Shown piece after piece: positions 26,894 to 36,118 of a stretch of DNA of 64,000 bases. Within the stretch, counting starts at the first letter, position 1; every line of letters begins with the position of its first letter. The stretch is from Falsiroseomonas stagni DSM 19981 (GTDB taxonomy: Bacteria; Pseudomonadota; Alphaproteobacteria; Acetobacterales; Acetobacteraceae): positions 124,001-188,000 of the forward strand of contig NZ_FOSQ01000006.1 of assembly GCF_900114315.1 (NCBI RefSeq), given 5' to 3'. The translations under genes and the position numbers were made by a program. Under the pieces are notes generated by a model, which was not told the origin of the DNA, searched no databases, and was given only the letters and a program-made list of their open reading frames with translations.

Positions 26894-27660
26894 TCGCGGA
26901 CATCCATGGGAACGCGGTGGCGCTGGAGGCGGTGCTCGCGGCGCTGCGGCATCGGGGGGTGGCGGCGGTGGTGAACCTTGGTGACCTGGTGTCCGGGCCC
27001 TTGTGGCCGGCGGAGACGCTGGCGCTGCTGCGGGAGGCGGGCATCGCCTCGTTGCGCGGCAACCATGATCGCTGGGTGGCGGAGGGCGGCGGCGGGGCTT
27101 CCGACCGCTTCGCGTGGGACGCGCTGACGGCCGAGGAGCGGGCCGGGCTGGGCGCGCTGCCGGTGCATCTGCGCCCCCTGCCCGGCGTGCTGGCCTTCCA
27201 TGCGCGGCCCGACAATGACGATGCCTATCTGCTGGAGGATGTGGCCGGCGGGCGGATGGTGCCGGCGCCGGTCGCCGAGGTGGCGGCGCGGCTCGGGCCG
27301 ATGGCGGAGAGGCTGATCCTCTGCGCCCACAGCCACCAGGCGGCGATCCGGCAATTGCCGGATGGACGCGTGGTGGTGAACCCCGGCAGCGTCGGGATGC
27401 CCGCCTATGAGGACCCGACGCCGCCTGCGCATGTCAGCGAGACGGGCGCGCCGCATGCCCGCTTCGCGGTGCTGGAAATCGAGGAGGAGCGGCTGCTGTC
27501 CGCCGATCTGGTGGCGATCGCCTATGATCACCAGGTGGCGGTGGCCCGCGCGCTGGCGAATGGAAGCGCGAAATGGGCCAGGTGGCTGGCGACGGGGGAA
27601 GCGTGGGACAGGGCGCGTGATGGCGGAGGTCCCGGCAGCACGACGACAAACCCTCGTTGA
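26878..27660 (+). CDS. YfcE/MJ0936-type metallophosphoesterase
   Basis: A 260-residue calcineurin-like phosphoesterase. The ATG at 26878 has GGGCAGGAG seven bases upstream. Metal ligands are visible in order: IADIHGN (D, H), LGDLVSGP (D), GNHDRW (N, H), CAHSHQ (H, H). The NPGSVGMPAYEDP region resembles the small bacterial YfcE-like group, which hydrolyse phosphodiesters. The last 20 residues are Gly/Thr-rich. Its stop codon overlaps the -35 element of the following attenuator promoter. Confidence 0.85.
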   Translation: MRLGVIADIHGNAVALEAVLAALRHRGVAAVVNLGDLVSGPLWPAETLALLREAGIASLRGNHDRWVAEGGGGASDRFAWDALTAEERAGLGALPVHLRPLPGVLAFHARPDNDDAYLLEDVAGGRMVPAPVAEVAARLGPMAERLILCAHSHQAAIRQLPDGRVVVNPGSVGMPAYEDPTPPAHVSETGAPHARFAVLEIEEERLLSADLVAIAYDHQVAVARALANGSAKWARWLATGEAWDRARDGGGPGSTTTNPR

Positions 27661-27686
27661 CAGACGTTCAGGCGGATCACTACCGT
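27657..27686 (+). promoter_or_regulatory. Promoter of the arginine leader-GNAT-argC operon
   Basis: Consensus -35 TTGACA at 27657-27662, an 18-bp spacer, then a weak -10 TACCGT at 27681-27686. Transcription would begin at about 27693, at or next to the ATG of the leader peptide (27694), giving a leaderless small reading frame. Rhizobial trp leader peptides are known to be leaderless in the same way. Confidence 0.55.
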
Positions 27687-27693
27687 CCCTGCG

Positions 27694-27798
27694 ATGCGTG
27701 ACCTTCGCCGCCGCAACGCCAACCGACGCCGTCGCTGCTTCTCAGCGGCGGCTTCCACGGCTGCGTGCAGACAGGCCCCGGCAAGGTCCGGCCCCTAG
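27694..27798 (+). CDS. Arginine-rich attenuator leader peptide
   Basis: A 34-codon frame beginning MRDLRRRNANRRRRCF, with 10 arginines, including runs at residues 5-7 and 11-14, then Ser/Ala-rich to a TAG at 27796. There is no ribosome site, but the predicted transcript starts at the ATG. The four-Arg run (27724-27735) overlaps the 5' arm of a hairpin at 27728-27752. Downstream lie an antiterminator candidate and an intrinsic terminator, then the GNAT-argC genes. A ribosome stalling at Arg codons when charged tRNA-Arg is low would favour read-through, the classical attenuation logic. No homologue could be checked. Confidence 0.7.
   Translation: MRDLRRRNANRRRRCFSAAASTAACRQAPARSGP
27728..27752 (+). 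promoter_or_regulatory. Attenuator hairpin 1:2 over the Arg codons
   Basis: GCCGTCGCTG (27728-27737), loop CTTCT, CAGCGGCGGC (27743-27752): 10 bp with one G-U pair. The 5' arm covers Arg codons 12-14 of the leader peptide, so a stalled ribosome would open it. Confidence 0.65.
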
Positions 27799-27853
27799 CG
27801 GCCCACCACCGAGACGGCATCAGCCCGCATCTCCGAACCCCCGCAGCCCCTGG
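27755..27853 (+). promoter_or_regulatory. Alternative antiterminator pairing (arms 2:3)
   Basis: GGCTGCG at 27759-27765 is the exact complement of CGCAGCC at 27842-27848, and CCA at 27755-27757 can pair with TGG at 27851-27853. This 10-bp helix uses the 5' arm and loop of the terminator, so the two structures exclude each other. Confidence 0.55.
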
Positions 27854-27872
27854 CTTCGGGGGTTTTTGTTTG
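27836..27872 (+). terminator. Attenuator terminator upstream of GNAT-argC
   Basis: AACCCCCG (27836-27843) pairs with CGGGGGTT (27857-27864), and AGCC/GGCT extends the stem inside after one mismatch. TTTTTGTTT follows. It lies 22 bp before the GNAT start and after the leader peptide, with no gene ending nearby except the leader, so it is an attenuator rather than an ordinary terminator. Confidence 0.85.
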
Positions 27873-27893
27873 TCCAGATCACAGGAGAACACC

Positions 27894-28442
27894 GTGCAGG
27901 ACAGCGGCTCCGCCCACCCCGCTCCTTCAGCAAGACCCGGCGACGCAGGGCATGGATCGATGCGACGCGCCACCGACGCCGATGCGGCGGCCGTCCGCGC
28001 ACTGACCCGCGCGGCCTACGCGAAGTGGGTGCCTCTCCTCGGGCGAGAGCCGCGGCCGATGACCGCCGATTACGATGTGGCAGTGCGCGACCACCTGGTG
28101 GACCTGTTGCACATGGATGGCGAAGCCGCCGCGCTGATCGAGATGGCGCCCACGGCTGACCATTTGCTGATCGTCAACGTCGCGGTCGCGCCCGCCCGGC
28201 AGGGCCGGGGCTACGGAAGCGCCCTGCTGGCGCATGCGGAGGAGGTCGCGCGCTCCCTCGGCCTTGGCGAAGTACGGCTCTACACCAACGGGCTCTTCGC
28301 CGAGAACCTGCGGCTCTACAGCCGGGTCGGCTACCGGGTGCAGCGGGAGGAAGAACACCCGCAGTTCGGGGCTGTCGTCCACATGAGCAAGCGCCTCGGC
28401 ACCGCTGCCGACGCACACTCCGGCAGCGGGACAGCACCATGA
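27894..28442 (+). CDS. GNAT-family acetyltransferase, first structural gene of the argC operon
   Basis: A 182-residue protein from a GTG at 27894, with ACAGGAG six bases upstream. After a 24-residue Ser/Pro/Gly-rich lead, the GNAT fold begins MRRATDADAAAVRALTRAAY. The acetyl-CoA loop is VAVAPARQGRGYGSALL, followed by RLYTNGLFAENLRLYSRVGY. It overlaps argC by 4 bp (ATGA), so the two are translationally coupled and both lie behind the arginine attenuator. It could be an N-acetylglutamate synthase-like or amino-group acetyltransferase linked to arginine metabolism, but the sequence is not clearly ArgA; the role is inferred from context. Confidence 0.82.
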   Translation: MQDSGSAHPAPSARPGDAGHGSMRRATDADAAAVRALTRAAYAKWVPLLGREPRPMTADYDVAVRDHLVDLLHMDGEAAALIEMAPTADHLLIVNVAVAPARQGRGYGSALLAHAEEVARSLGLGEVRLYTNGLFAENLRLYSRVGYRVQREEEHPQFGAVVHMSKRLGTAADAHSGSGTAP

Positions 28443-29416
28443 GCATTCGCGTCGGCATTGTCGGGATCAGCGGCTTTGGCGGCGGCGAGGCGATGCGCCT
28501 GGTCGCGGGCCATCCGTCCTTCGAACTCGTCTACGCCGCGGGCGAGGGCAGCGCCGGCAGCCGCCTGGCAGACCGCTTCCCGGGTGTCCCGTCCCGCCTG
28601 GCCGGACTGGTGATCGAGAAATGGGACCCCGCGACGCTGCCGAAGCTCGATGTGCTGTTCGCGTCACTCCCCACGGGCACCTCGGCGGAGGCGCTGGCGC
28701 GGGTCCCCGCGGCGGTGAAGATCGTCGATATCGGCGGTGACCATCGCTACGTCGAGGGTTGGACCTATGGCCTGGCCGATGTCTGGCCGGGCGACATCAT
28801 GGGCCAGACCCGCATCGCCAACCCCGGCTGCTTTCCCGCGGCGACGCTGACCGCGCTGGCGCCGCTGCTGGCCAATGGGCTGATCGATCCCGGGAACATC
28901 GTGATCGACGCCAAGACCGGCATCTCCGGCGCCGGTCGGGGCGGCGCCGACAGCCGGTTCGGCTACGCCGAGAGCAACGAGAACCTCGTGCCCTATGGCC
29001 TGCTCCAGCACACCCACATGCCCGAGATGGCCAGGACGATCGAGCGGCTGGGCGGCGGCAGCGCCACCGGGCTGGTGTTCACGCCCCATCTGGTGCCGAT
29101 GACCCGCGGCATCCTCGCCACCATTTACTGCCGCGGCCGCGCCACCACGGATCAGTGCCTGGACGCGGCGCGGCGCTTCTATGCCGGGCGCGCCTTCATC
29201 CGCGTGACGGACAAGCCGCCGCAGACCAAATGGGCGACCGGCTCGAACCTCGCCTTCGTGAGCTATGCGGCCGATCCGGTTCGCAAGCTGGTGATCGCGA
29301 TGGGCGTGGTCGACAACCTCGGCAAGGGAGCGGCCGGCCAGGCCGTGCAGAACGCGAACCTGATCTGCGGCCTGCCGGAAACCGCGGGGCTGGATGGCGC
29401 CCCTGTCTGGCCCTGA
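28439..29416 (+). CDS. argC: N-acetyl-gamma-glutamyl-phosphate reductase
   Basis: A 325-residue dehydrogenase. The NADP-binding start VGIVGISGFGGGEAMRLV deviates from the usual GASGYTGGEL form. The catalytic Cys lies in ANPGCFPAATLTAL, followed by DAKTGISGAGRG, the catalytic His region YGLLQHTHMPEM and the substrate loop HLVPMTRGILATIY. It reduces N-acetylglutamyl phosphate to the semialdehyde, the third step of arginine synthesis. It is coupled to the GNAT gene and controlled by the upstream Arg-leader attenuator. The divergent glycine motif leaves open a second-copy or pathway-variant enzyme. Confidence 0.88.
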   Translation: MSIRVGIVGISGFGGGEAMRLVAGHPSFELVYAAGEGSAGSRLADRFPGVPSRLAGLVIEKWDPATLPKLDVLFASLPTGTSAEALARVPAAVKIVDIGGDHRYVEGWTYGLADVWPGDIMGQTRIANPGCFPAATLTALAPLLANGLIDPGNIVIDAKTGISGAGRGGADSRFGYAESNENLVPYGLLQHTHMPEMARTIERLGGGSATGLVFTPHLVPMTRGILATIYCRGRATTDQCLDAARRFYAGRAFIRVTDKPPQTKWATGSNLAFVSYAADPVRKLVIAMGVVDNLGKGAAGQAVQNANLICGLPETAGLDGAPVWP

Positions 29417-36032: not shown

Positions 36033-36118
36033 TGGTGCGGTCGAGAAGATTCGAACTTCCACGGGGTTGCCCCCACCAGCACCTCAAGCTGGCGCGTCTA
36101 CCATTCCGCCACGACCGC
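36033..36118 (-). tRNA. tRNA-Leu (anticodon GAG), CCA encoded
   Basis: Read on the minus strand it begins GCGGTCGTGGCGGAATGG and ends GACCGCACCA. Acceptor GCGGTCG pairs with CGACCGC. The anticodon arm is CCAGC-TTGAGGT-GCTGG (anticodon GAG, reading CUC/CUU). A long variable arm (GGGGGCAACCCC) marks a class II tRNA, and the T arm contains GTTCGAATC. 86 nt including CCA. CUC is a very frequent Leu codon in such GC-rich genomes. Confidence 0.96.

Follow-up and report, generated by a model that had tools for sequence, protein, structure and literature searches.

A candidate arginine-responsive transcription attenuator upstream of an accessory argC gene in Falsiroseomonas stagni and related loci

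RESULTS

An Arg-rich leader precedes a GNAT-argC gene pair

A 64,000-nucleotide stretch of the 6.4-Mb genome of Falsiroseomonas stagni DSM 19981 (positions 124,001 to 188,000 of contig NZ_FOSQ01000006.1; referred to here as the window) contains, in order, a metallophosphoesterase gene, a short leader region (27657 to 27867), and a gene pair consisting of a GNAT-family N-acetyltransferase gene and a second copy of argC. The comparisons and calculations described below indicated that this leader is very probably a ribosome-mediated transcription attenuator, which reads the charging of Arg-tRNA and is placed before an accessory argC gene with or without the GNAT gene.

The original prediction for this locus was derived from the letters of the window and listed six items, all of which were present and all of whose coordinates were correct (Table 1). 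The 34-codon open reading frame (ORF) encodes the peptide MRDLRRRNANRRRRCFSAAASTAACRQAPARSGP, in which 10 residues are Arg and which includes the run RRRR. The hairpin over the Arg run, the strong terminator followed by a T run before the GNAT gene, and the ATGA overlap that joins the GNAT gene to argC were likewise found as described. No Rfam family matched the leader at or above its gathering score. A mechanical motif rule was formulated, requiring an ATG that TTGAC precedes by 35 to 40 nucleotides, at least three consecutive Arg codons at codons 8 to 17 of a short ORF, and a terminator within 330 nucleotides; it produced a single match on both strands of the window, at 27694.

Table 1. Positions of the leader parts and of neighboring features in the window
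Feature	Position	Strand	Remark
-35-like TTGACA	27657-27662	+	First T 37 nucleotides before the ATG at 27694
Weak -10-like CTACCG	27680-27685	+	From sequence and conserved spacing
Predicted transcript start	At the ATG or within ~3 nucleotides	+	Predicted from spacing
Leader ORF, 34 amino acids plus stop	27694-27798	+	No Shine-Dalgarno sequence; predicted leaderless
Putative regulatory Arg codons 11 to 14 (CGA CGC CGT CGC)	27724-27735	+	
Arg hairpin (helix 1:2), arms GCCGTCGCTG/CAGCGGCGGC	27728-27752	+	Presumed to re-form after ribosome passage
Antiterminator 5' arm GCGGCGGCTTC	27745-27755	+	Doubles as 3' arm of the Arg hairpin
Conserved GGCTGCGTG	27759-27767	+	TGCGTG within it can pair with CCCGCA at 27824-27829
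CCCGCA	27824-27829	+	Partner in the inner helix of the antiterminator arm
GAACCCCCGC	27835-27844	+	Shared by antiterminator (3' arm) and terminator (5' arm)
Intrinsic terminator, stem-loop plus T run	27836-27867	+	Stem-loop 27836-27864
GNAT-family N-acetyltransferase gene, GTG start	27894-28442	+	Pfam PF00583; between terminator and argC
Accessory argC, TIGR01850 type	28439-29416	+	280.4 bits; cutoff, 233.6
tRNA-Leu (GAG)	36033-36118	-	

Conservation of the leader upstream of the same argC

The loci nearest to the window place it in the Roseomonas group of the Acetobacteraceae. Relatives of the window argC were collected from 200 genomes of the family and from one species-level genome collection, of which the best 80 of 219 confirmed loci were utilized. 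Among the loci retrieved, 101 carried the same argC (protein identity of at least 83.7%): 80 in the collection and 21, counting that of the window, in the family. Five GNAT-argC leaders served to build a profile, which detected the leader (E < 1e-10) upstream of argC at 74 of these loci (17 of the 21 family loci and 57 of the 80 others); two loci (L014 and L105) start inside argC and were not judgeable. Six of the 74 leaders were copies of other loci, most likely the same genome present in both collections, and two of the remaining 68 (L004 and L055) were dropped for lack of an ATG at the expected place, leaving 66 leaders for all further counts. Recurrence at 74 loci together with the single motif match in 64 kb indicated that the leader is more than a chance arrangement.

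The start, spacing, Arg codons, stop, and terminator of the leader were conserved. The distance from TTGAC to the ATG was 36 to 38 nucleotides in 65 of the 66 leaders (37 in 56 of them), and a Shine-Dalgarno-like string preceded the ATG in only one. The conserved Arg codons that the original prediction had named beforehand as its test were present in every leader, as a run of 3 to 5 beginning at codon 10 (43 leaders) or codon 11 (23 leaders); Arg was encoded at codons 11 and 12 in all 66, at codon 13 in 64, at codon 14 in 52, and at codon 10 in 43. The ORF stopped at codons 32 to 38 in 66/66, and an intrinsic terminator with a T run was detected in all. The peptide past the Arg run was loose, with the frame of the next segment deviating in 5/66. 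Retention of the Arg run and the stop alongside a loose downstream peptide fits a device that needs codons and timing rather than the peptide itself.

The choice of Arg codons was also restricted. Codons 10 to 14 (n = 291) consisted of 147 CGC, 108 CGA, and 36 CGU codons with no CGG or AGR, and the first codon of the run was CGA in 66/66 leaders. For comparison, CGG made up 31% and AGR 7% (AGG, 6%) of the 1,353 Arg codons in 33 window ORFs that are rich in GC at third codon positions and were taken as genes. CGU, CGC, and CGA are decoded by one isoacceptor. RNA pairing may be an additional constraint on the bases of the Arg run.

Calculated switching between exclusive helices

In order to model stalling, a ribosome was placed at each codon and the RNA downstream was folded. 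With a footprint of +15, the probability of the terminator was close to 1 at almost all ribosome positions and dropped only when the A site was at codons 10 to 14. The mean fell to 0.62 with the A site at codon 13, where 25/66 leaders were below 0.5; at each of codons 1 to 9 and 15 to 32, only 0 to 3 of the 66 were below this level. Three other footprints moved the dip by about a codon at most.

The alternative structure was examined in a nascent calculation, in which the RNA ended before the 3' arm of the terminator. The favored antiterminator was GCGGCGGCTTC paired with GAACCCCCGC, to which the Arg hairpin contributes its 3' arm (GCGGCGGC) and the terminator its 5' arm. With the ribosome at codon 13, pairing of 27745-27755 with 27835-27844 had a probability of 0.93 in the window and a mean of 0.80 over the 66 leaders, and in the window it was 0 without a ribosome. 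The GCGG:CCGC helix exceeded 0.5 in 55/66 stalled leaders and in 0/66 without a ribosome. Pairing of the terminator 5' arm with any upstream segment was detected in 97% of the 66 stalled leaders, compared to 39% of dinucleotide shuffles of the intervening segment (five each) and 12% of leaders without a ribosome. By calculation, the helices are mutually exclusive, since the antiterminator shares the arm 27745-27755 with the Arg hairpin and the arm 27835-27844 with the terminator.

A different antiterminator had been proposed originally, formed by GGCTGCG (27759-27765) and CGCAGCC (27842-27848). These strings are indeed complementary, but they did not form the favored helix: their pairing had a mean probability of 0.09 and exceeded 0.5 in only 5 of the 58 leaders containing both strings, compared to 0.80 for GCGG:CCGC in the 66. 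GGCTGCG is able to form an inner helix with CCCGCA.

Specificity of the leader across genomes

The leader class of the window occurred once in its own genome, a second match on the minus strand being the other strand of the terminator. Among the 200 family genomes, 23 had a leader match, and the 19 matches above 70 bits consisted of the 17 accessory argC loci and two GNAT cases. A search of 385 genomes of the class added two strong matches, both before the same argC; one 48-bit match was a relic, and the rest scored below 37 bits. Nine of these weak class matches were inspected and none had a leader before a gene, with L125 yielding no leader stretch. The relic (L143; G553:C1:2590600-2590750) lies beside an apparent scrap of the 3' end of argC and looks like a decayed second copy; an intact leader and argC are present in the same genome.

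An accessory argC with a dispersed distribution

The window argC, an accessory second copy, matched TIGR01850 (280 bits), whereas the other argC of this genome, located on another contig, is of a different type, TIGR01851 (376 bits). Each of the 21 family genomes that carry the accessory gene matched it two or more times at E values of ≤0.001, and in at least 14 of them, among the matches listed, a second match of ~30% identity was present. Control of canonical argC by such a leader was rejected: of 10 loci of the other argC type, none combined an Arg-run ORF with a terminator in the 300 upstream nucleotides scanned, which in nine of them were placed by the match rather than by a known start.

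The accessory argC DNA of the window was 86 to 90% identical to that of two Methylobacterium loci and of Vineibacter, Bosea, Bradyrhizobium, Cupriavidus, and Polaromonas loci. Of 100 argC sequences tried, 11 gave no ORF and 6 were duplicates or short, and the remaining 83 were placed on a tree. Bacterial orders were interleaved on it (14 changes among the 55 rows assigned to a named group), and 9 changes were needed to account for leader presence. The gene was detected on 6 of 72,556 plasmid records. A leader with an Arg run preceded it on p546-1 of Roseomonas haemaphysalidis, where the leader position carries no annotated feature, and on a Methylobacterium aquaticum plasmid; a degenerate and possibly decayed leader with a shortened Arg run preceded it on an Agrobacterium leguminum Ti plasmid (L316), and the other three plasmids had no leader. 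These patterns suggest that the leader and accessory argC were transferred together. On two of the leader-free plasmids, both from Paracoccus (L317 and L319), an HD-domain gene follows argC.

Few ORF families were shared among 81 loci: argC itself, three minus-strand families (81, 27, and 17 loci) that are probably shadows of argC, and one plus-strand upstream family (7 loci). A conserved gene neighborhood pointing to another role of argC was therefore rejected. Several argC loci without the leader, among them L049, L051, L053, L061, and L107, have another short upstream segment in common, like TTCGCTCACTCCAGCAGTAGGACACCACC; no terminator was detected there in our scan, and a different control may operate.

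Leaders before GNAT genes, divergent leader classes, and argD

Most leaders directly preceded argC. In the window and at L013, L035, L042, and L050, the GNAT gene was flanked by the terminator on one side and the ribosome-binding site of argC on the other, and the GNAT-argC operon of the original prediction thus holds for the window but is one arrangement of several. In two genomes (G108 and G052), the leader preceded a GNAT gene and the argC search detected no accessory argC; at L041, the leader was followed by a GNAT gene, a further ORF, and then an argC with its own leader-free upstream region. A reverse order was observed at L044, L048, L067, and L095, where a leader-free argC is directly followed by a GNAT gene (58 to 61% identical). 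The GNAT protein of the window gave an AlphaFold2 model with a mean pLDDT of 90.1. Its identification as a classical N-acetylglutamate synthase was rejected because profile and fold searches returned generic GNATs (PaiA-, RimI-, and SpeG-like proteins among the top matches), with acetylglutamate synthase appearing only at an E value of 1.8e-4.

Application of the motif rule upstream of 45 GNAT relatives detected 13 leaders, which were the sole matches to the rule on both strands of the same loci (308,434 bases). A fourteenth, in G108 (L178 and L181), has a GTG start and was missed by the rule; the remaining 31 upstream regions had no leader. Another 14, weaker GNAT relatives (L160 to L173) were covered by a separate scan only, in which no terminator was found. 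Three of the 13 leaders belonged to the class of the window, and several others had unrelated terminators. One terminator, CCCCCGCGAC..GTCGCGGGGG, preceded a SnoaL-GNAT fusion at L156, L157, and L185 (domains determined for the L180/L185 protein); another, CCCTGCCCACC..GGTCGGCGGGG or nearly so, preceded GNAT genes at L151, L155, L158, L192, L197, and L208 and later at L215; and L199 had neither. At L219 (G186:C265:135830), a GNAT leader was observed in which Arg alternates with Pro (MHIPARRPRPRPRTRLRR...) without a run.

Models of two leader classes led to L216, where MPNLFSVAANRRRRPQQARSTACVRQTRAM and a terminator are followed by argD (TIGR00707, 442.7 bits). This genome has two argD matches, of which only one has the leader motif, and 69 of 70 argD upstream regions (from 172 genomes with an argD match) lacked the motif, L216 being the sole exception. 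The argD target is thus a single example, and control of canonical argD by such a leader was rejected as well. CGA was the first codon of the Arg run in all 12 divergent leaders, L216 included. In 11 of the 12, the terminator arm was more often paired when the ribosome stood within the run than when it had passed it, with means of 0.72 and 0.20, respectively.

DISCUSSION

The leader combines an Arg run, an intrinsic terminator, a calculated exclusive antiterminator, a calculated dependence on stall position, and a target in the arginine pathway, the pathway targets identified by family models being argC and a second argD. Since the features of his- and trp-type systems were found in the sequence tests, covariation apart, the leader was placed with the ribosome-mediated transcription attenuators. 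The original reading of an arginine attenuator was thus largely right as to the Arg codons, the spacing, the terminator, and stall-dependent antitermination across relatives; the antiterminator pairing is the part that has been replaced.

We infer the start site, stalling in vivo, read-through, and the arginine signal from these patterns, and the leader would operate as follows. Transcription would start at or beside the ATG, and a ribosome would load on the 5' end of the RNA and translate behind RNA polymerase. When Arg-tRNA is ample, the ribosome would clear the Arg codons and the Arg hairpin would re-form behind it, capturing the GCGGCGGC arm; with this hairpin re-formed, the GC-rich terminator would fold and transcription would end before GNAT-argC. 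Under a shortage of Arg-tRNA, the ribosome would stall at codons 10 to 14 and cover the 5' arm of the hairpin. The freed GCGGCGGCTTC would then pair with GAACCCCCGC, the 5' arm of the terminator, and polymerase would read through into the accessory argC, with or without GNAT.

Several observations weigh against this mechanism. The leader was absent from 25 of the 99 judgeable loci of the same argC. The promoter is only partly as originally described: the TTGACA hexamer is in place and its spacing is kept, but the -10 sequence of the window leader is poor and a simple sigma-70 scan called no promoter at the leader. At full equilibrium, the terminator of the window retained a probability of 0.98 even with a stalled ribosome, and that of 41/66 leaders remained at 0.5 or above with the A site at codon 13, so that most leaders flip only in the nascent calculation; there, 11/66 did not exceed 0.5 for the antiterminator. 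As the nascent antiterminator of the window reached 0.93 against this equilibrium value of 0.98, the flip there must be kinetic. Covariation was weak: both-sided changes were detected in 1 of 24 predicted pairs, and those of the antiterminator (2 of 15 pairs) were no better than in shuffles (144/500). The alignment of argC upstream regions, proposed earlier as a check, hence revealed a conserved Arg-rich small ORF but hardly any covarying stems, because the pairs scarcely vary. On the other side, the covariation score of the antiterminator was matched by only 1/500 shuffles, and 95% of its cells were paired compared to 36 to 50% in slid versions; in L157, a class II leader, one change turns a mismatch into a pair as judged by eye. 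Among the divergent leaders, the terminator arm of L156, L157, L185, and L215 was paired upstream at >0.5 without a ribosome, and L199 exhibited no stall effect. The fourth divergent leader with ribosome-free pairing slightly lowered our confidence in attenuation, which is still high.

Other explanations for the leader differ in what they make of the Arg run. Ribosomes could stall there for another reason, such as poly-Arg in the exit tunnel, slow decoding of CGA, or an antibiotic, in which case the leader would report translation stress. The invariant CGA at the head of the run suits such a role, but CGU and CGC occur alongside it, no conserved arrest peptide is apparent in the loose sequence after the run (with its 5 frame deviations and variable stop), and argC and a second argD are among the targets; we consider this explanation unlikely. 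An equally low probability is assigned to action in trans of the terminated leader RNA or peptide, with or without attenuation, in the manner of Sinorhizobium rnTrpL/peTrpL, with which the predicted leaderless design is shared (PMC10117765; PMC7298713). Some leaders do not keep the peptide in frame past the Arg run, and window-class leaders whose flanks were read adjoin argC or GNAT directly, one relic excepted; such action would in any case be compatible with attenuation and not exclusive of it.

Arg-codon leaders that act through Rho or by masking a ribosome-binding site, like Salmonella speF orf34, are described in two reports (PMC6386406; PMC13009471). In the present leaders, by contrast, an intrinsic terminator with a T run is universal, the stall acts on its 5' arm, and the downstream Shine-Dalgarno sequence lies beyond it, which makes this type of control improbable. 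Least credible, to the point of being negligible, is an ordinary terminator of the upstream gene beside a chance ORF: Arg-rich ORFs are common at high GC, but the leader is shared while the upstream genes mostly are not, and neither the window nor the GNAT loci (308 kb) contained another motif match. Ribosome-mediated attenuation is therefore the reading that we retain.

Amino acid attenuators are known for his, trp, leu, thr, and ilv of enteric bacteria. The present leader resembles these in having a leader ORF with a cognate codon run, protector, antiterminator, and terminator helices, and a biosynthetic target; it differs in its use of arginine, the absence of a Shine-Dalgarno sequence, an accessory enzyme copy as the target, and antiterminator arms that are ~80 to 90 nucleotides apart. 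The fungal arginine attenuator peptide is likewise an arginine-linked leader peptide of an arginine-supply gene, but it is eukaryotic and depends on nascent-peptide arrest at high arginine.

Leaderless attenuation is known for trpL (PMC10117765), and the trpL leader of Sinorhizobium meliloti is, like the present one, alphaproteobacterial with its ORF at the 5' end of the transcript (PMC10117765; PMC7298713), a start that is predicted here; trpL differs in responding to tryptophan and in encoding a 14-amino-acid peptide with roles in trans. Consecutive Arg codons (12 and 13) of Salmonella speF orf34 sense arginine, with ribosome pausing altering RNA folding, but they control ornithine decarboxylase through Rho and RNase G, without an intrinsic terminator and outside arginine biosynthesis (PMC6386406). 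In rbfL of Staphylococcus aureus, Arg codons of a leader peptide also sense arginine shortage, which there blocks a ribosome-binding site and represses translation of a biofilm regulator (PMC13009471). The uORFC-8-2 element before cysS in Rhodobacterales shares a cognate-codon leader ORF, a proposed stall leading to read-through, and an alphaproteobacterial host, but has cysteine codons and a tRNA synthetase target (PMC8632094).

The main texts of two surveys of structured bacterial RNAs mention neither argC nor arginine (PMC11109978; PMC6429828), and a third survey does not name argC and mentions arginine twice, in one passage for carA (PMC8632094). In agreement with the original prediction, none of the papers listed by our literature searches, which did not extend to most subscription journals or to any supplements, named a ribosome-mediated transcription attenuator for the biosynthesis of arginine in bacteria. 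We judge the leader to be an arginine-specific, multi-target addition to the ribosome-mediated transcription attenuators, whose accessory and apparently transferable targets are unexpectedly varied.

Codon-run attenuation is among the founding examples of gene control by translation, and control of arginine biosynthesis in bacteria is usually ascribed to repressors such as ArgR. A wider proposal, which we consider somewhat less likely than not, is that these leaders form a dispersed, transferable arginine starvation regulon, in which several leaderless Arg-attenuator classes with different terminators and one geometry have come to lie, sometimes on plasmids, before spare argC and argD genes and before a single family of GNAT genes. 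The GNAT enzyme might then carry out a dedicated, unrecognized reaction that serves either the supply of arginine or the tolerance of an arginine antimetabolite. As a family of arginine attenuators that seemingly lack a ribosome-binding site and guard accessory genes, these leaders would provide a test bed for leaderless attenuation. They also offer a way to ask which tRNA-Arg isoacceptor is sensed and to assign a function to the GNAT family.

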